In this document: positions 682 through 7,633 of the stretch, in pieces
Layout of the letters: every line of letters begins with the position of its first letter
How positions within the stretch are numbered: the first letter of the stretch is position 1
Origin: an uncultured Clostridia bacterium
GTDB taxonomy: Bacteria > Bacillota > Clostridia > Christensenellales > Borkfalkiaceae
Length of the DNA: 56,129 bases
Direction of reading: 5' to 3'
Assembly: GCA_947175325.1 (NCBI GenBank)
Contig: CAMWME010000008.1
Coordinates: 1 to 56,129 of the forward strand
Notes under the pieces: generated by a model
The model's database searches: none
What the model was told of the DNA's origin: nothing
The model's input: the letters and a program-made list of their open reading frames with translations, nothing else
Position numbers and translations under genes: made by a program

Positions 682-1527
682 ATGTTAAAAGAAGATTATA
701 TTTTGATGGGCGGCGTAAAAATTCCTAAGCTCGGATTGGGAACGTGGCAAATGTCGGAAAACGAAGCGGAAGAGGCAACGCTTAATGCGTTAAAACTCGG
801 TTACAGACAAATAGACACCGCCGGTGCATACGGCAACGAGGCGGGCGTAGGCCGCGGAATAAAGCGGTACGGTGCAAGGCGAGAAGAGATATTTATCACC
901 ACAAAAATACAAGCCGAAATTAAGACTGCCGAAGGCGCGGCCGAGGCAATTGAAAATTCACTTAGGCTGTTAGATACCGATTATATCGACTTAATGCTCA
1001 TTCACGCGCCTATGCCTTGGGACGAAATATGCTACAGAAAACCCCGCCCTTCGCACAGATACGAAAAGGAAAACATAGCAGTTTGGAAGGTAATGGAAAA
1101 ATATCTTGAAAGCGGAAAATTACGCGCTATCGGGGTGTCCAATTTCGAAATTCACGATATTTTGAATATAATTGAAAATACTTCTATAAAACCCGCCGTC
1201 AACCAAGTGCGCTGTTATATAGGGCACACGCCGCGTAAGGCAATAGATTTTGCAAAGGAGCAAGGAATTATCATTCAAGCTTATTCCCCCAACGCGACGG
1301 GAAGATTATTGTCTGACGAAACGGCAAACCGCCTTGCAAAAAAATACGGAGTAACGGTCCCGCAGCTTGCTATAAAGTACGATTTGCAGCTCGGAACTCA
1401 GCCGTTGCCCAAAACCACGAACGCTTTGCATATGGAAGAAAATTGCAAACTGAATTTCGATATTTCGGCGGACGATATGCAAATTCTCGAAAGCTTGGGC
1501 ACCGTCGATTTGGTTCGTGAAAAATAA
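682..1527 (+). CDS. Aldo/keto reductase
   Basis: A 281-residue member of the aldo/keto reductase superfamily, an NAD(P)H-dependent cytoplasmic enzyme that reduces aldehydes or ketones. The TIM-barrel landmarks are in order: KLGLGTWQM at the start, the catalytic Asp45 and Tyr50 in DTAGAYGNE, catalytic Lys75 in TTKI, His108 in LMLIHAP, GVSNF around 151, and the NQVRCYIGH strand near 175. Length is that of the diketogluconate/glyoxal reductase-like group. The substrate cannot be told. The start is ATG with CGGAG upstream. A nitroreductase follows 18 bp later, so the pair is probably an operon handling electrophiles or redox stress. Confidence 0.93.
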   Translation: MLKEDYILMGGVKIPKLGLGTWQMSENEAEEATLNALKLGYRQIDTAGAYGNEAGVGRGIKRYGARREEIFITTKIQAEIKTAEGAAEAIENSLRLLDTDYIDLMLIHAPMPWDEICYRKPRPSHRYEKENIAVWKVMEKYLESGKLRAIGVSNFEIHDILNIIENTSIKPAVNQVRCYIGHTPRKAIDFAKEQGIIIQAYSPNATGRLLSDETANRLAKKYGVTVPQLAIKYDLQLGTQPLPKTTNALHMEENCKLNFDISADDMQILESLGTVDLVREK

Positions 1528-1545
1528 TTAAATGGAGATATTAAA

Positions 1546-2208
1546 ATGGATTTGAAAGAAGCTATATTAAGCCGCCATTCGGTGCGTTCCTACGTTGATA
1601 AGCCTATCGAGGGCGAAACGCTTGAAAAGCTGAACGCTATGATTGAAGAATGCAATAGGGAAGGCGATTTGCATATACAGCTCGTTACGAACGAGCCGAA
1701 AGCGTTTGACTGTTTTCTTGCCCACTACGGCAAATTTAAGGGCGCAAGTAATTATATTGCGCTCGTTGGGAAGGACTGTGAAGACTTCTACGAGAAACTC
1801 GGTTATTATGGAGAAAAGCTCGTTCTTTACGCGCAGACGCTGGGGCTGAATACTTGTTGGGTTTATCTCACTTATAAAAAGGTCAAAAACGCTTACGTGC
1901 TTAATAAAGGTGAAAAGTTGGGTCTTATCATAGCAATAGGATACGGTGAAACACAAGGGAAAAGCCACAAGAGCAAGACGCTTGCAGACGTTTCGGCTGC
2001 GGTCAATCCGCCCGAATGGTACGTTAAGGGAATCGAAGCGGCTTTGCTTGCGCCGACGGCTATGAACAAGCAAAAATTCTTTTTCTCTCTTGAAGGGAAC
2101 AAGGTTAAAGTAGATACGGCTTCGGGAGTATGTACGAAAATTGATTTGGGTATCGTAAAGTATCATTTTGAGATAGGCGCGGGCAAAGAGAACTTCGAAT
2201 GGGCGTAA
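1546..2208 (+). CDS. Nitroreductase-family FMN protein
   Basis: A 220-residue protein of the nitroreductase fold, expected to bind FMN and use NAD(P)H to reduce nitro compounds or quinones in the cytoplasm. The N-terminal SRHSVRSYVDKPI is the family's R-x-S-x-R FMN-binding signature. YGEKLVLYAQTLGLNTCWVYL near residues 88-108 and the IAIGYGE strand near 129-135 are also typical. EAALLAPTAMNKQKFFF near 164-180 is the substrate-domain region of the TM1586-like subfamily. The start is ATG 18 bp after the aldo/keto reductase, with GGAG upstream. A strong hairpin follows the stop. The natural substrate is unknown. Confidence 0.88.
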   Translation: MDLKEAILSRHSVRSYVDKPIEGETLEKLNAMIEECNREGDLHIQLVTNEPKAFDCFLAHYGKFKGASNYIALVGKDCEDFYEKLGYYGEKLVLYAQTLGLNTCWVYLTYKKVKNAYVLNKGEKLGLIIAIGYGETQGKSHKSKTLADVSAAVNPPEWYVKGIEAALLAPTAMNKQKFFFSLEGNKVKVDTASGVCTKIDLGIVKYHFEIGAGKENFEWA

Positions 2209-2257
2209 AACAATTATAGATATGTTTATGTAGTTTAATGGTTCTAAGCGTTATAAG

Positions 2258-2286
2258 AGCCGCAACTTTCGAAAGTTGCGGCTTTA
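2258..2286 (+). terminator. Perfect 13-bp inverted repeat, likely terminator
   Basis: AGCCGCAACTTTC is followed at once by its exact reverse complement and then TTT. It lies 50 bp after the nitroreductase stop. The T-run is short, so termination may be modest. Confidence 0.7.
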
Positions 2287-2400
2287 AGCTTGGTCGAAAT
2301 CTTTATGCGTTTAATTTTGTCACACGATGGGCACACAAGTATAAAATAATAGTTTTGTTGTATAAAACAGCTACAATTTAAGGTTTTTAAGCAATTATAT

Positions 2401-2526
2401 GCGTAATAGGTGGTTCAAGGCATACAAGCGGAGCCATTACGCTGACGACACATAGAATACATCTATTCACATACCGCAGAATTAGTTGGTTTCAACCTTG
2501 CAAGGTAAGTTTGACGGATTTCAAAA
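2401..2526 (+). pseudogene. Decayed tRNA-Asn/5S rRNA remnant
   Basis: This stretch matches positions 10-160 in the same order but with many changes and deletions. A T-arm remnant (GGTTCAAGG, then ATACAAGCGGAGCCATT) is followed by CGCTGACGA, CACATACCG, CAGAATTAGTTGG, AACCTTGCAAGGTAAG and GACGGATTTCAAAAAA. The 5S helix is broken and roughly 25 bases are missing from the centre, so neither RNA can be functional. Confidence 0.8.
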
Positions 2527-2559
2527 AATAAGCACTCACTATGTGGGCGCTTATTTTTT
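2527..2559 (+). terminator. Retained terminator of the decayed rRNA tail
   Basis: TAAGCACTCAC / GTGGGCGCTTA pair with one mismatch and one G-U, then a T-run. It occupies the same place as the terminator at 171-203, but the stem sequence has drifted with compensating changes. Confidence 0.75.
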
Positions 2560-2641
2560 GTTTTTAATAAAGCGTCGATTTTAATATGGTTTCTTGGTTT
2601 GCTTTTTTGTTGCTTACGCGACGCGGTTTTGCAAATATACA

Positions 2642-2671
2642 TTGACTATATTTGACGCTTTATGATATAAT
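2642..2671 (+). promoter_or_regulatory. Sigma-A type promoter for the HRDC gene
   Basis: -35 TTGACT (2642-2647), 18-bp spacer, -10 TATAAT (2666-2671). The leader to the next start codon is about 130 nt and shows no obvious riboswitch. Confidence 0.75.
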
Positions 2672-2806
2672 AACTATCAAATCCGAAACGATTACAAACG
2701 GTTGTAGGTTCTCCGCAAGGGCTTTTTTGGCACAGCGGAAGACTTGTTGGAGAAATAGGAAGAAGCAAACCGTTTTGATACTGAGATTATTAGGAAAGGG
2801 GAAACT

Positions 2807-4147
2807 ATGGATAAGCATACGAATGACAGCATTTCGATTGGGTGCGTGGTAGGATTGTATTGTCCTACTGCTGACGAGCATCTTGAATATCGCTTGGTCA
2901 AAAGTAGAGATACGATGGAGTATAAGCCGCGATTCGGAAGCAAAATTTCGTTTGGCAGTAAGTTATATTATGAAAATATCACTCAATTTGCGGAATATGC
3001 AGACGACGAGCTTGCCGAAGATAGACCGTTGGCACAAGCTTTAATGGGTAAAAGGCTTGGCGACAGTTTTAAAATAAACGAATATACTTATCGGGTTGAA
3101 AAGATAATTTTCCCTAACGGGCAAATTGCGGAGGAGGAAGGCGAATCTAATATTGCAAAAGAAATTAAAGACGAGATTCGTCATGAAGGTGTTGGTTTTG
3201 ATAATTGTCTTGCCGCTGAATGCACGGAAGAGGAATTACAGATAATACACAGCTTTCAAGAGTTTATGGGCAGAGAATTTCCGCAATTCCTATGTGAAAG
3301 CAAGACGGATAAAATTGTTTTTTATAATCCGGAAATTCAATGCGACAATGAACAACCGTATCAGTTTTGGTTCGTAAAACGCGGTGGAATTCTTACGTTT
3401 AGATTCAAGCTTACTCAGAACGAAAGCGATGAATTAAAATATTTTAACAACGTTTTAGTTGCGGATAACGTGCAGTTTGATTCAATTTGTATTTTGGTCA
3501 AGCTTATATTGGCACAGAGCAACCGTTCTCCCCAAGAAGAACAAAAAACGGAGAATCCGAGCCTTGACAGTTTAGAGCAAGGTTATAAAAGCGATAACGA
3601 TTTATTTGAAGAGCTGCGTATTTGCAGACTTAAAAAAGCACAAGAAGAGGGAGTTGCGGCTTTCCAAATCTTATGGAATAGAACGTTAACGGAAATAGTT
3701 AGGGTAAAGCCTACTAACTACGAAGAATGGATTAACATAAAGGGTCTAGGTGACGCAACTTATAAGAAAATAGGCGTCGAGTTTATAGAAATTATTAAGA
3801 AGTATGCGGATATTAAAGGGGAAGCGGTAAAAGAAAATTTGTCGGATTCGGAAGAAGAGAATTACTTAACGGTAAATATAAACGGTTTCGATTTTATTTG
3901 CGACGAAAACGGTGAGATTGTTACAGACTCCGATTTGTTGGAAGAATTGCGGAAGCGCAGATTAAGCTTAGCTCAAGAAGAAAGGGTGCCGGCTTACTGT
4001 GTTTTTTCTAATTCGGTATTGGTCAGCTTGGCTACTTATAAACCGGTTAACGAAGCAGAATGGCTTGCTATAAAAGGATTGGGCGCGGCTAAGTTTGCAA
4101 AGTACGGCGAGCAAATTATAACGCTGATTAAGGAATATAAGCGGTAA
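2807..4147 (+). CDS. GreA-C-like protein with two HRDC domains
   Basis: A 446-residue soluble protein. Residues 8-110 resemble the FKBP-like C-terminal domain of GreA/GreB, most clearly in ISIGCVVGLY and in AEDRPLAQALMGKRLGDSF. Residues 135-245 form a domain I do not recognise. Residues 265-337 and 375-446 are two HRDC domains, each with the ELRxxRLxxAQEE...P helix and a WLxIKGLG-type hairpin. HRDC domains normally sit at the C-terminus of RecQ-type helicases or RNase D and bind nucleic acid; there is no helicase or nuclease core here. A link to RNA polymerase or to DNA repair intermediates is inference. ATG start with AGGAAAGGGG upstream and its own promoter. Confidence 0.8.
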   Translation: MDKHTNDSISIGCVVGLYCPTADEHLEYRLVKSRDTMEYKPRFGSKISFGSKLYYENITQFAEYADDELAEDRPLAQALMGKRLGDSFKINEYTYRVEKIIFPNGQIAEEEGESNIAKEIKDEIRHEGVGFDNCLAAECTEEELQIIHSFQEFMGREFPQFLCESKTDKIVFYNPEIQCDNEQPYQFWFVKRGGILTFRFKLTQNESDELKYFNNVLVADNVQFDSICILVKLILAQSNRSPQEEQKTENPSLDSLEQGYKSDNDLFEELRICRLKKAQEEGVAAFQILWNRTLTEIVRVKPTNYEEWINIKGLGDATYKKIGVEFIEIIKKYADIKGEAVKENLSDSEEENYLTVNINGFDFICDENGEIVTDSDLLEELRKRRLSLAQEERVPAYCVFSNSVLVSLATYKPVNEAEWLAIKGLGAAKFAKYGEQIITLIKEYKR

Positions 4148-4208
4148 ACAGTTATAAGCGGAATTAGTAGTGAGAAACCGTATTATAATAAGTACGATGG
4201 GAGGAGCT

Positions 4209-4541
4209 ATGGCTATTACGATTAATATTTATTATACCGGTGAGGGGGGAAGCGCGAAGAAGTTCGCAGAGGAAATGGTTTCGAGCGGAGTAGTTGACGA
4301 GATTCGCGCCGAAGAGGGGAATATCAGATACGAGTACTTCTTCCATATGGACGATAAAGAGACGGTGCTTTTAATTGATAGCTGGAAGGACCAGAGCTCG
4401 CTTGACAAGCACCACGCCTCGCCTATGATGGCGAAGATAACTAAGCTTCGCAACAAATACGATTTGCATATGAAGGTTGAAAGGTACGTATCCGACGATG
4501 CGGGCGTGCCGTCAACCGATGAAAAATTTATCCGCAAATAA
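4209..4541 (+). CDS. ABM-domain (antibiotic biosynthesis monooxygenase-like) protein
   Basis: About 110 residues. The ITINIYYTGEGGSAKKFAEE opening, the NIRYEYFFHMDD strand, and the VLLIDSWKDQSSLDKHHASP segment match the ferredoxin-like ABM fold seen in YgiN-type quinol monooxygenases and small heme or flavin-linked oxygenases. Such proteins act as dimers in the cytoplasm. A longer reading frame starts at 4170, but GGGAGGAG lies immediately before the ATG at 4209, so I place the start there (spacing is rather tight). A flavoredoxin-like gene follows 17 bp downstream, suggesting a two-gene redox unit. The substrate is unknown. Confidence 0.82.
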   Translation: MAITINIYYTGEGGSAKKFAEEMVSSGVVDEIRAEEGNIRYEYFFHMDDKETVLLIDSWKDQSSLDKHHASPMMAKITKLRNKYDLHMKVERYVSDDAGVPSTDEKFIRK

Positions 4542-4558
4542 AAATAAAGGAGTAAAAT

Positions 4559-5131
4559 ATGTTAAAAGATTTAGGAGTTAAACCTTACGTTTTCCCGATG
4601 CCCGTGCTGTTGATTTCGACCTATAACGAGGACGGAAGCGTTGACGTTATGAATATGGCTTGGGGCGGAGTATGCGCCGAGAATATGGTAGCGCTGAACA
4701 TTGACGAGGACCACAAGACCTCTGAAAATATCAAGCGCACGGGTGCATTTACTTTGAGTATTGCCGACGTTCCCCACATAGAGGCGGCGGACTTTTTCGG
4801 GATTGCGACGGGCAATAAAATGAAGGACAAGTTCGAGCGTTCGGGCTTGCACGCCGTAAAAAGTACGAGAGTGAACGCGCCGATAGTGGAGGAATTCCCG
4901 TTGACGCTCGAATGCAAAGTCGTAGAGTGCCAGCATACCGTTTACGGGTTCCGCGTGCTCGGCGAAATACTCAACGTGCTTGCGGACGAAAAGGTGCTTG
5001 ACGGCAAAGGCAAGGTTGACCCCGCGAAACTCAACGCGTTCGTGTTCGACCAGTTCCAAAGCGGTTACTACGCGGTAGGCGAAAAGGTCGGGCAAGCTTG
5101 GCAGTCGGGCGCGAAGCTGATGAAGAAGTAA
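4559..5131 (+). CDS. Flavin reductase-like (flavoredoxin) FMN-binding protein
   Basis: A 190-residue protein of the FMN-binding split-barrel, flavin reductase-like family. The opening PYVFPMPVLLISTYNEDGSVDVMNMAWGG and the segments LNIDEDHKTSENIKRTGAFTLSIAD and HIEAADFFGIATG are the usual FMN-contact blocks. It probably carries electrons with bound FMN in the cytoplasm. ATG start with AAAGGAG upstream. It follows the ABM-domain gene closely, converges on the HxlR-type regulator, and ends before a shared terminator. Regulation by that HxlR protein is possible by position only. Confidence 0.88.
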   Translation: MLKDLGVKPYVFPMPVLLISTYNEDGSVDVMNMAWGGVCAENMVALNIDEDHKTSENIKRTGAFTLSIADVPHIEAADFFGIATGNKMKDKFERSGLHAVKSTRVNAPIVEEFPLTLECKVVECQHTVYGFRVLGEILNVLADEKVLDGKGKVDPAKLNAFVFDQFQSGYYAVGEKVGQAWQSGAKLMKK

Positions 5132-5181: not shown

Positions 5182-5508
5182 TTATAGGCTGTTTTTATAA
5201 TCGGTGCCCCAATCTACCATAGCGTCGAGAATGGGTTTTAACGAGGTGCCGAGGGGCGACAAGGAATACACTACGCGGGGCGGGACTTCGGCAAAGACTT
5301 CCCTTTCGACTATTCCGTCGTCTTCGAGTGCGCGTAGGTTATCCGTTAAAACCTTTTTGCTTATGGCGGGAATGGTTTTTATAAAATCTGTAAACCGTTG
5401 GTTCCCGTTGTAAATCAAGTTGCGGATAATTAAAAGTTTCCACTTGTTGCCTATAAGCTGTACGGTGGTGGCAACTGGGCATTCGGGCAATTCGGATTTA
5501 GTCAGCAT
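5182..5508 (-). CDS. HxlR-family transcriptional regulator
   Basis: A 108-residue winged-helix protein of the HxlR/YodB type. Visible are CPVATTVQLIGNKWKLLIIRNL, the recognition region RFTDFIKTIPAISKKVLTDNLRALEDDGIVER, and the wing PPRVVYSLSPLG. Cys10 just before the helix is the redox- or electrophile-sensing cysteine position in YodB, HypR and relatives, so quinone or disulfide stress sensing is a fair inference. I start at the ATG preceded by AGAGGT (complement of 5508) rather than at an upstream in-frame ATG. It is divergent from the cupin/macrodomain/sirtuin operon, with a palindrome between the two promoters. Confidence 0.9.
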   Translation of the reverse strand: MLTKSELPECPVATTVQLIGNKWKLLIIRNLIYNGNQRFTDFIKTIPAISKKVLTDNLRALEDDGIVEREVFAEVPPRVVYSLSPLGTSLKPILDAMVDWGTDYKNSL

Positions 5509-5530: not shown

Positions 5531-5559
5531 ATTATATTAAATAGCGGAGATAAAGTCAA
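5531..5559 (-). promoter_or_regulatory. Promoter of the HxlR gene
   Basis: On the minus strand: -35 TTGACT (complement of 5554-5559), 17-bp spacer, -10 TATAAT (complement of 5531-5536). Confidence 0.8.
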
Positions 5560-5589
5560 TAGTTCAAAAAAGAAACTTAGTAACGAATT

Positions 5590-5604
5590 TATTATCAGAT
5601 AATA
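5590..5604. promoter_or_regulatory. Candidate HxlR operator palindrome
   Basis: TATTATC-A-GATAATA is a perfect 7-bp inverted repeat midway between the divergent HxlR and cupin promoters. AGTAAC motifs flank it on both sides. The binding role is inferred from position. Confidence 0.55.
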
Positions 5605-5618
5605 GAAAAGTAACTCTC

Positions 5619-5647
5619 TTGTATTAATTTTTGCCGTTTGCTATACT
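5619..5647 (+). promoter_or_regulatory. Promoter of the cupin/macrodomain/sirtuin operon
   Basis: -35 TTGTAT, 17-bp spacer, -10 TATACT. It lies 15 bp from the candidate operator palindrome. Confidence 0.6.
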
Positions 5648-5679: not shown

Positions 5680-6030
5680 ATGAACAACTACAAGAAAATC
5701 AGCGTTGCGGAAGGAGCGCGCACCGAGCTTCACGACAGCCTTGCCCTTACGGGTGCGGAGGTTAGCATAAACGCTTTGCCCGCAGGTGCAAGCGTGCCCT
5801 TTATCCATTCGCATAAGCAAAACGAGGAAATTTACGCCGTTTTGGAAGGCGAGGGATACGCCGTAATCGACGGAGCAAAGGTGGACTTAAAAGCCGGCGA
5901 CTGGCTGCGTATTTCACCCGCGGCGAAGAGGCAGTTTTTCGCATCCGAAAAATCCGCAATAAAGTATATTTGTATTCAAGTAAAGGAGAACTCGTTAGAG
6001 GGTTACACGATGACGGACGCCGTCGTTTAA
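5680..6030 (+). CDS. Cupin-domain protein
   Basis: A 116-residue single-domain cupin. The metal-binding motif 1 is PFIHSHKQNEEIYAVLEGEG, with the His-x-His pair and a Glu; motif 2 is GDWLRISPAAKRQFFASE and is weaker, lacking an obvious metal His. It may be a small binding or sensing protein or a non-classical dioxygenase or isomerase; no substrate can be assigned. Start is ATG at 5680, behind GGAGG; a longer frame from 5638 lacks a ribosome site. It is the first gene of an operon with a zinc-macrodomain protein 6 bp downstream, and is divergent from the HxlR regulator. Confidence 0.88.
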   Translation: MNNYKKISVAEGARTELHDSLALTGAEVSINALPAGASVPFIHSHKQNEEIYAVLEGEGYAVIDGAKVDLKAGDWLRISPAAKRQFFASEKSAIKYICIQVKENSLEGYTMTDAVV

Positions 6031-6036
6031 AATTTT

Positions 6037-6810
6037 ATGGAGCAAGCGCAGAGAAGAAAGTATTTAATTGAATATTTGTTATCGGAAAGGAAGTTGCCGA
6101 CCGAATTGCCGCCAAATACGGACGCGCAGAAAAGGCTGTTCCGTGCGCTTGTGAACGAGCGTATGCCCAAAGAGGCAAGCAAGGAATTTTTGCGAATTCA
6201 AGACGAGTATTTGCGGGAAGAGCTGCGGCAAAAAGGCGTGACCGATATTGCCGAGCTTTCGCCCGTTGCCCCCGACATATACCTTTGGCAAGGCGACGTT
6301 ACCACGCTGAAATGCGACGGAGTCGTAAACGCCGCAAACTCGCAGATGCTGGGCTGTTTTTGCCCCAACCACGGCTGTATAGACAACGCCATTCATACCT
6401 TTGCTGGCGTGCAGCTTAGGCAAGAGTGCGCCGAGATTATGAAGGCGCAAAGAGAAGAGGAGGCGACGGGGCAAGCGAAAATTACGGGGGCTTACAACTT
6501 GCCGTGTAAATATATTTTGCACACCGTCGGCCCGATAGTTTACGGCGAGCTGACCGAGCGGCACGAAACACTGCTTGCAAACTGTTACCGTTCGTGCCTT
6601 GCGCTTGCCGATAAAAACGGATTGCAGAGCTTGGCGTTTTGCTGTATCTCTACGGGTGAGTTTCACTTCCCGAACGAGCGGGCGGCGCAAATTGCAATAC
6701 GCACGGTTGAGGAATACAAACGGCAAACGGGCAGCAAAATCAAAGTAATTTTCAACGTGTTCAAGGATTACGATTATGAAATCTACGCAAGATTACTCGG
6801 AAAAGCTTAA
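6037..6810 (+). CDS. Zinc-containing macrodomain ADP-ribosyl hydrolase
   Basis: A 257-residue protein. Residues 1-75 are a helical N-terminal region and residues 80-255 a macrodomain. The ADP-ribose binding loops are seen as GDVTTLKCDGVVNAAN (86-101) and the CCISTGEFHFP loop (202-212). The insertion GCFCPNHGC (106-114) provides Cys107, Cys109, His112 and Cys114 as zinc ligands, which marks the Zn-macro group associated with class M sirtuins. Family members remove ADP-ribose from sirtuin-modified proteins. It overlaps the following sirtuin gene by 35 bp, so the pair is a writer/eraser unit. No clear ribosome site is present; translational coupling to the cupin gene is likely. Confidence 0.9.
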   Translation: MEQAQRRKYLIEYLLSERKLPTELPPNTDAQKRLFRALVNERMPKEASKEFLRIQDEYLREELRQKGVTDIAELSPVAPDIYLWQGDVTTLKCDGVVNAANSQMLGCFCPNHGCIDNAIHTFAGVQLRQECAEIMKAQREEEATGQAKITGAYNLPCKYILHTVGPIVYGELTERHETLLANCYRSCLALADKNGLQSLAFCCISTGEFHFPNERAAQIAIRTVEEYKRQTGSKIKVIFNVFKDYDYEIYARLLGKA

Positions 6811-7633
6811 TAAGTTAAGGGCGGCTTTGAAGAACGCGGAGGCGGTGGTTATCGGCGCGGGCGCGGGGCTTTCCACCTCGGCGGGGTTTACCTATTCGGG
6901 TAAGCGGTTCGGGGAACACTTTGGCGACTTCGAGGAAAAGTACGGCTTCCACGATATGTACTCGGGCGGGTTTTACCCATACTCCACGCCCGAAGAGGGG
7001 TGGGCGTTTTGGTCGAGAAATATTTTAATCAACCGCTATCAAAATCCGCCCAAGCCCGTGTACGAGGATTTGTACGGGATAGTAAAAGATAAAAATTATT
7101 TCGTAATCACTACTAACGTTGACCACTGTTTTCAAAAGGCGGGGTTCGATAAGGAGAGGCTGTATTACACGCAAGGTGACTACGGCTTGTTTCAGTGCTC
7201 GGTGCCGTGCCACGATAAAACCTACGACAACGAGGGGCTCGTTCGCCGCATGGTTGCCGAACAAGCCGACATGAAAATTCCGCCCGAGCTCGTGCCGCGC
7301 TGCCCAAAATGCGGCAAGCCTATGACGATGAACTTGCGTTGCGACGATAAATTCGTGCAAGACAAGGGGTGGTATGCGGCATACGAGCGGTACGAAAATT
7401 TTATTCGGCAGAATAAGAATAAGCGGGTTCTTTATCTCGAACTCGGCGTGGGCGGCAATACGCCCGTGATAATAAAGTATCCGTTTTGGCGGCTCACTAA
7501 CCAAAACCCGAAAGCGACTTACGCATGCATAAACTACGGCGAGGCGATTTGCCCGCCGCAGATAGAGGACCGCTCGATTTGTATCAACGAAGACATAGGC
7601 GCAGTGTTGGCGCAATATAAAAAAACCGTTTAG
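6776..7633 (+). CDS. sirTM: Class M sirtuin (SirTM), protein ADP-ribosyltransferase
   Basis: A 285-residue NAD-dependent sirtuin. The Rossmann loop reads GAGAGLSTSAGFTYSG (27-42) instead of the deacetylase GAGxSxxSGIPDFR. TTNVDH (112-117) is retained, but the position of the catalytic His is Gln133 (YTQGDYG), as in ADP-ribosylating SirTM enzymes. Zinc ligands are Cys141, Cys145 and the CPKC pair. The enzyme should transfer ADP-ribose to a protein rather than deacetylate. In the described systems the target is a lipoylated GcvH-like protein, with LplA2 alongside; neither is in this window. The ATG at 6776 has AAGGA upstream and overlaps the macrodomain gene by 35 bp. Confidence 0.9.
   Translation: MKSTQDYSEKLNKLRAALKNAEAVVIGAGAGLSTSAGFTYSGKRFGEHFGDFEEKYGFHDMYSGGFYPYSTPEEGWAFWSRNILINRYQNPPKPVYEDLYGIVKDKNYFVITTNVDHCFQKAGFDKERLYYTQGDYGLFQCSVPCHDKTYDNEGLVRRMVAEQADMKIPPELVPRCPKCGKPMTMNLRCDDKFVQDKGWYAAYERYENFIRQNKNKRVLYLELGVGGNTPVIIKYPFWRLTNQNPKATYACINYGEAICPPQIEDRSICINEDIGAVLAQYKKTV

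Follow-up and report, generated by a model that had tools for sequence, protein, structure and literature searches.

Within a 56,129-nucleotide stretch of DNA, hereafter the window, that forms contig 8 (CAMWME010000008.1) of the assembly GCA_947175325.1 from an uncultured Clostridia bacterium of the Borkfalkiaceae, we examined an operon in which a cupin gene is followed by genes for a zinc-dependent macrodomain (Zn-Macro) and a class M sirtuin (SirTM), opposite a divergent gene for an HxlR-type regulator. The statement that fits this locus best, and that we favor with moderate confidence, is that a minimal writer-eraser pair of SirTM and Zn-Macro lies behind an HxlR-linked promoter, is placed under redox control by HxlR, carries the cupin as cargo, and acts on a target other than lipoylated GcvH-L. 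The SirTM/Zn-Macro pair itself has been described before. In the searched literature, which included few subscription journals, no match was found for the HxlR/operator frame, for the cupin variant, or for the link between SirTM and ACGX peptides described below. For the targets of other SirTM systems, called elusive and a stated open question in Ariza 2024 (PMC11490716), comparing the cargo genes that accompany the pair in other Clostridia yields a short list of candidates. It is from these relatives that the strongest new result comes: a radical SAM system with ACGX-repeat peptides was found only in genomes with SirTM, 25 of the 25 genomes that have it.

Identity of the predicted writer and eraser

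The genes of the operon and its divergent regulator are as follows.

5182..5508, minus strand: HxlR-type regulator, 108 residues from its ATG (Pfam HxlR, 8.6e-32).
5680..6030, plus strand: single-domain cupin, 116 residues (Cupin_2, 3.3e-10; PDB 3cew over the full length, 5e-51).
6037..6810, plus strand: zinc-dependent macrodomain, predicted protein ADP-ribose hydrolase (NF003163, 362 bits with a cut-off of 272; PDB 8rsi, 5kiv, and 8rsl).
6776..7633, plus strand: SirTM, predicted protein ADP-ribosyltransferase (PDB 5a3a, 1.4e-71).

A first-pass annotation of this DNA had described the same arrangement, with the cupin first, then the macrodomain and SirTM in reading frames that share 35 base pairs (bp; 6776-6810), and HxlR divergent, and a check of the open reading frames (ORFs) together with Pfam and NCBIfam matches confirmed it. 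Solved structural relatives are known for the cupin, the macrodomain, and the sirtuin alike.

The sirtuin does not reach the cut-off of any generic SIR2 model, yet matches 5a3a, the SirTM of S. pyogenes, closely. Its Asn114, Gln133, and Arg188, which are invariant in all ten rows of the SirTM alignment, align to Asn118, Gln137, and Arg192 of that protein (the 5a3a chain numbering runs 10 ahead of the published one by our own count), and mutation of these residues dramatically lowered transfer by S. pyogenes SirTM (PMC4518038). The same source gives the class features as QG in place of the catalytic HG, retention of Asn and Arg, and the motif GVGx[NT]TP, to which GVGGNTP of the window conforms. 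Gln133 stands in place of the catalytic His, as the first-pass annotation had proposed. Linkage to a Zn-Macro, which is found near SirTM at 64 of 68 class-level loci, is likewise present, and by its sequence the protein is a class M sirtuin and a predicted ADP-ribosyltransferase, in a class further defined by protein ADP-ribosyl transfer without deacylase activity. One might instead suppose that the sirtuin depletes NAD+ upon phage infection, as antiphage SIR2 effectors do: the fold is that of a sirtuin, antiphage sirtuins are mentioned in the abstract of PMC12700824, and integrase-family phage genes (Pfam) occur among the close SirTM neighbors at four named loci, e.g., L156. Against such a defensive or toxic role, which we regard as very improbable, stand the dedicated hydrolase, the neighboring HxlR, and the presence of every class M transferase residue, Gln for His included.

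The macrodomain has the features of a MacroD-type Zn-Macro, namely a zinc loop with the pattern Cx4HxC described for these proteins (PMC11490716), here Cys107, His112, and Cys114, an Asp116/His120 dyad, the NAAN motif within VNAANS, and an N-terminal extension, and it aligns with 8rsi and 5kiv from residue 5 or 6 onward. The first-pass annotation had also listed Cys109 among the zinc ligands; this residue lies outside Cx4HxC, occurs in two of nine macrodomain alignment rows, and was rejected, while the other three ligands held. With NAD+, SirTM would mono-ADP-ribosylate a protein other than lipoyl-GcvH-L, and the Zn-Macro would remove the ADP-ribose mark.

Relatives were drawn from the family of the window (201 genomes, 59 with SirTM) and from the class, and contexts were counted by tblastn; the codon-scored gene caller misses some genes. 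A third set, the named loci, comprises the best 80 of 591 and overlaps the family set, as with L034 and L137, so that counts from the two are not independent. Fewer than 6 kb of upstream sequence was present at 19 of 61 family loci, 29 of 80 named loci, and 12 of 68 class loci. A Zn-Macro match was found in 53 of the 59 SirTM genomes of the family draw and was lacking in six; it also occurred in 23 family genomes with no detected SirTM (e.g., G010, G011, G027, and G043; a few matches fall below the cut-off), and the eraser therefore occurs also without a SirTM writer.

Absence of the lipoyl partners

GcvH-L and LplA2 are missing from the locus, as the first-pass annotation had stated, and were not found elsewhere in its genome. 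A profile search of the assembly (1.54 Mb in 25 contigs, 97.4% complete) gave no GcvH match, the control being positive in 13 of 14 genomes, and LplA2 was likewise not found; the lone ligase-like match fell below the cut-off and was rejected as a lipoate ligase, as it carries a biotin-ligase C-terminal domain. At this completeness and contig number the absence is strong, not absolute.

The annotation had presented the missing lipoyl genes as unusual, on the premise that described SirTM operons also encode GcvH-L and LplA2. That premise is true of the "extended" type only, which PMC4518038 places in Lactobacillales and Staphylococcaceae; independent SirTM/Zn-Macro pairs were described in 2015 in the same article, the first SirTM paper (Rack 2015). 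The genome of the window has neither of the two genes that mark the extended type, and its pair is of the known minimal kind. Like the minimal pairs of PMC4518038 and PMC11490716, it consists of adjacent overlapping genes with the diagnostic residues and no GcvH-L or LplA2. Unlike them, it begins with a cupin gene and has a divergent HxlR and an operator-like site that is conserved; the main texts of both papers are without the words cupin and HxlR. The extended operon of S. aureus and S. pyogenes (GcvH-L, Zn-Macro, SirTM, LplA2, OYE, and LLM) also places a writer-eraser pair among redox-related genes, whereas the window pair lacks the lipoyl carrier, the lipoate ligase, and an adjoining OYE or LLM. 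A further difference may lie in the basic patch that binds GcvH-L in SauMacro, formed by Arg175 and Arg176 (PMC11490716): by alignment, with an inferred numbering offset, the equivalents in the window macrodomain would be Tyr169 and Gly170, without an arginine pair. The Zn-Macro of one minimal pair cannot demodify GcvH-L (Ariza 2024, PMC11490716).

GcvH is scarce throughout the family. Matches to the GcvH model occurred in 30 of the 201 genomes, five of them strong (E < 1e-30) and 25 weak and partial, which were taken to be biotinyl domains, and a strong GcvH coincided with SirTM in one of the 59 SirTM genomes. A hidden Markov model built from five GcvHs, run against 213 loci (eight without SirTM), had a single match, at L312, so that the absence of GcvH beside SirTM is general, not universal. 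At that locus (L312:5116-7893, genome G580) SirTM lies downstream of a fusion of DGC and GcvH domains, a ferredoxin, and two more DGC-domain proteins, and no macrodomain was recognized near SirTM; the locus may represent a different type of extended SirTM operon.

Since its genome yielded neither GcvH nor a lipoate ligase, and a strong GcvH accompanies SirTM in one of 59 genomes, lipoylated GcvH-L is very unlikely to be the target in the bacterium of the window, and the suggestion of the first-pass annotation that the target is something else is supported. A lipoyl system could still lie concealed, with GcvH-L and LplA2 in the unassembled 2-3% of the genome; the draft state of the assembly and the GcvH-domain protein beside SirTM at L312 would agree with it. 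The rarity of strong GcvH in the family (five of 201 genomes, one of 59 with SirTM) and the probable Tyr169/Gly170 pair speak against it, and we give it hardly any credence.

The HxlR regulator and a putative operator

Between the regulator and the operon lie three further elements.

5531..5559, minus strand: candidate HxlR promoter, TTGACT-17-TATAAT (11 of 12 consensus bases), from a scan whose site number was no more than chance.
5589..5605, no strand: operator-like palindrome TTATTATCAGATAATAG (pattern CTATTATCNGATAATAG, exact copy at 5590-5604).
5642..5647, plus strand: candidate -10 box TATACT of the cupin-macrodomain-SirTM operon, 36 bp past the operator and not reported by a stricter promoter scan.

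The palindrome and its spacing recur in relatives. In the intergenic regions of cupin loci, CTATTATCNGATAATAG was found in 27 of 32 at four or fewer mismatches and in 25 of 32 at three or fewer. With one shuffle per region as a control, the best count was five mismatches in the cupin regions and four in four of the 43 other, mixed regions; the four-mismatch level is therefore not free of chance matches. Counting distinct promoter regions (101 distinct sequences among 105), the operator at four or fewer mismatches was present in 26 of 31 with cupin, 10 of 42 with other cargo, and 3 of 28 with ACGX peptides. A -10-like box followed at exactly 36 bp in 33 of the 41 loci with the operator at this level: 24 cupin loci, two ACGX loci (L058 and L069), and seven others, namely those with an NAD(P)H-binding protein (L080 and L088), with a PNPOx-ferredoxin protein or the macrodomain first (L035, L142, and L133), with a 263-residue protein (L187), and L062. 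Within its own genome the operator had a copy with no mismatch only at the window promoter (5590-5604), and no GcvH-L or LplA2 gene was seen elsewhere under the same regulator, an arrangement that the first-pass annotation had raised. Allowing two mismatches gave 15 further sites, 16 in all, versus eight for a control pattern; these sites are too near background to interpret, and the attempt to name regulon members from them was abandoned.

The regulator itself has Cys10 within an N-terminal PECPV; an alternative upstream TTG start would lengthen it to 125 residues, and an NCBIfam match of the RrpB/RrpA-like type is under its cut-off. Within a neighborhood from 6 kb upstream to 2.5 kb downstream of SirTM, HxlR was found at 35 of 68 class, 27 of 61 family, and 47 of 80 named loci, in locus sets that overlap. 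Where linked to SirTM, it was divergent in 105 of 106 cases and in 104 of 106 carried a Cys among its first 20 aligned residues; the window regulator has both the N-terminal Cys and the divergent orientation expected of redox-sensing HxlR proteins, and its most likely signal is an oxidant or electrophile. From the palindrome, which lies 36 bp ahead of the -10 box, it would probably control the rightward operon. It may do so as an activator, as the fixed spacing of the operator upstream of the promoter suggests; a B. subtilis-type HxlR has been deposited as an activator, according to the title of the deposit.

Across Clostridia, the HxlR/SirTM core carries one of several exchangeable cargoes: the cupin, a PNPOx-ferredoxin protein, an NAD(P)H-binding protein, the 263-residue protein, or the ACGX peptide with a radical SAM protein and a nitroreductase. 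What several of the cargo variants in the family of the window have in common is HxlR together with a constant operator geometry. Two provisional labels were dropped: the 263-residue cargo had been considered metallo-beta-lactamase-like, and Pfam assigns it to no family, and a 212-residue cargo had been considered NmrA-like, where Pfam gives NAD(P)H-binding (PF13460). At four loci (L065, L068, L082, and L086), SirTM operons have Rrf2 and an NAD(P)H-binding protein in place of HxlR and the cupin. Of the 105 intergenic regions next to HxlR, 42, such as those of L151, L175, and L193, carry a second palindrome, AAGT-N4-ACTT, often AAGTGCGTACTT, which is perhaps the operator of other HxlR lineages.

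The cupin as probable cargo

The cupin was present in 31 of the 201 family genomes, 23 of which have SirTM: SirTM adjoins the cupin in 19, lies elsewhere in four, and is missing from eight. Conservation of the cupin beside SirTM, which the first-pass annotation had asked to be tabulated, is real. Thirty of the 31 cupin loci were examined, 19 linked to SirTM and 11 unlinked, the 31st being from a genome without SirTM. The divergent HxlR was kept in 10 of the 11 unlinked loci (six of seven in SirTM-less genomes and four of four with SirTM elsewhere), and the operator was found at three or fewer mismatches in 6 of the 11 when the whole locus was searched. These divergent pairs, with a cupin like PDB 3cew, consist of the same two genes as in the window and several share its operator; in the window, unlike in the pair alone, Zn-Macro and SirTM follow. 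In a tree of the cupins, linked and unlinked members were intermixed, with seven changes versus a shuffled mean of 9.2 and a value as low in 47 of 500 shuffles. At the class level the cupin was found at 3 of 68 SirTM loci, all three in this family. On this pattern, the cupin is both a genuine conserved neighbor within one family and part of a separable HxlR-cupin module.

The first-pass annotation had named the cupin as a possible target. A cupin that is ADP-ribosylated by SirTM and thereby switched off (or on), with the Zn-Macro reversing the mark, would take the place of GcvH-L, and its position as first gene of the operon is consistent with this. The persistence of HxlR-cupin pairs without adjacent SirTM, the failure of linked cupins to form a clade or to differ strongly from unlinked ones in more than three alignment columns, and the 65 of 68 class-level SirTM loci without a cupin argue otherwise, and we consider the cupin unlikely to be the substrate. 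On the first two of these grounds we regard it as cargo under shared regulation; it would derive from an independently existing HxlR-cupin pair and is likelier to be a parallel detoxification enzyme than a substrate.

A looser association is also conceivable, in which SirTM and Zn-Macro act on a target in trans or a general one and have only the promoter in common with the cupin. This overlaps with the reading that we favor and differs from it by denying a joint pathway. The same operator geometry precedes several unrelated cargo genes, and in some relatives SirTM lies outside such operons, e.g., directly behind clpP-clpX at L066, L070, and L071, where there is no cupin, HxlR, or macrodomain in cis. 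The eraser, too, can be in trans: a macrodomain lies between cupin and SirTM at nine of the 19 linked loci and is absent in cis from ten, and all ten of these genomes encode a Zn-Macro elsewhere, for which reason an interpretation of these loci as SirTM without an eraser was rejected. Left without explanation by a promoter shared for regulation alone is the repeated preference for redox-type cargo, and we find this account quite possible while leaning against it.

Several observations weigh against the combination of HxlR-linked redox control, cupin cargo, and separate target that we prefer. Cupin and SirTM co-occur strongly (SirTM in 23 of 31 cupin genomes versus 36 of 170 others, p = 2e-8, with genomes that are not independent), their adjacency at ten loci without a macrodomain in cis would fit a direct tie between the two, and three alignment columns of the cupin (38, 90, and 108), and these alone, differ strongly in frequency between linked and unlinked members; the co-occurrence and the adjacency would also suit a cupin substrate. 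Neither HxlR nor Rrf2 was seen at 23 of 68 class loci (12 of the 68 having less than 6 kb of upstream sequence), and outside the family most ACGX promoters are without the operator, which 3 of 30 ACGX promoters carry at four or fewer mismatches. Redox sensing by HxlR is suggested by one cysteine.

ACGX peptides and radical SAM proteins near SirTM

When neighboring genes were clustered, many SirTMs proved to have genes for a Cys-rich repeat peptide and a radical SAM protein upstream, which NCBIfam models identify as a radical SAM/SPASM protein of TIGR04340 (577 bits, cut-off 400) and an ACGX-repeat peptide of TIGR04341 (68 bits, cut-off 28). In the class draw of 391 genomes, TIGR04340 was above the cut-off in 15 and SirTM present in 66, with SirTM in 15 of the 15 (p = 6e-13); in a second family (f21, 38 genomes) the numbers were 11 and 15, with an overlap of 11 of 11 (p = 1e-6), and in the family of the window five of 201 genomes had TIGR04340, all five with SirTM (p = 0.002). 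All three p-values treat as independent genomes that are not, and more weight attaches to the range of family groups and SirTM lineages in which the system occurs. Pooled with each genome counted once, the ACGX radical SAM protein occurred only in SirTM genomes, 25 of 25, from seven family groups. It lay within 5 kb of SirTM on one contig in 19 of the 25, from five groups, and on a different contig in six (G493, G513, G528, G033, G077, and G097). A tree of 119 SirTMs was built by a quick method and contains a single branch of great length (L333). It requires nine changes for the ACGX context (15 rows), at least five of these forced by strong branches, and six for the cupin context (19 rows), for which a single origin is possible.

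Of 21 loci whose radical SAM gene scored above the cut-off, 20 had an ACG-repeat ORF at most 0.8 kb upstream of it, the miss being L233, a short locus with a partial gene; five further f21 loci are outside this count. Three genomes with a radical SAM match below the cut-off had no adjacent ACG-repeat ORF and no SirTM. A common order is a divergent HxlR, the ACGX peptide, the radical SAM protein, a nitroreductase, a PNPOx-ferredoxin protein, Zn-Macro, and SirTM. As in the window, a divergent HxlR is thus followed by cargo and then by Zn-Macro and SirTM in the same slot, and the operator spacing is shared at L058 and L069 (L069 having a partial radical SAM match only). The window differs from these operons in having neither peptide nor radical SAM gene: TIGR04340 was not found in its genome, no run of three or more ACG repeats occurs anywhere in the window, to which the search for the peptide was confined, and no ORF of 20-120 residues with at least four Cys lies between 4100 and 7800. 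A hidden Cys-rich peptide in the operon was accordingly rejected by both scans. At L289 (5488-5625, genome G396), a shortened ACGX gene of 45 residues with no radical SAM gene stands between HxlR and the PNPOx-ferredoxin, Zn-Macro, and SirTM genes, an arrangement suggestive of an ACGX operon in decay in which SirTM has been retained.

The composition of the ACGX operon recalls that of GcvH-L, which receives its lipoyl group from its own ligase, is ADP-ribosylated only when lipoylated, probably on an acidic residue, and is accompanied in its operon by flavin oxidoreductases (PMC4518038). In the ACGX operon the parts are a small peptide rich in Cys and acidic residues and a radical SAM enzyme that probably modifies it (unless the maturation complex does so), along with the nitroreductase and the PNPOx-ferredoxin protein. 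By analogy with the GcvH-L operon, we propose the ACGX peptide as a testable candidate for the SirTM substrate in pairs without GcvH-L. Zn-Macros are described, in PMC11490716, as the sole known hydrolases that cleave ADP-ribosyl-cysteine, which fits this proposal and does not prove it. More broadly, and with considerable doubt, SirTM and Zn-Macro without GcvH-L may form a switch for ADP-ribosylation that is linked to HxlR and can change its substrate, in which the ACGX peptide, as a small sulfur carrier, replaces the lipoyl-GcvH-L of staphylococci and the cupin operon of the window would be the same module with the peptide replaced. The radical SAM gene is missing from 51 of 66 class-level SirTM genomes, and SirTM must therefore have other targets, in the genome of the window as well. 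If the peptide were the substrate, a ribosomal peptide product would be controlled by reversible ADP-ribosylation, and we know of no other such product.

Upstream genes and probable origin of the host

Profile matches upstream of the operon (682-5131) identify genes for an aldo/keto reductase, a TM1586-type nitroreductase, an HRDC/GreA-C protein, an ABM protein, and a flavin reductase. The first-pass annotation had offered nearby redox proteins as an alternative target; the ABM and flavin reductase genes each recur at just one other SirTM locus, which does not favor that suggestion, in a comparison that covered six upstream genes, the aldo/keto reductase and nitroreductase at 682-2208 lying farther out. 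The nearest named SirTM loci, among the best 80 of 591, come from uncultured Clostridia genomes, many of them from animal guts, and the host bacterium is probably of animal gut origin as well.

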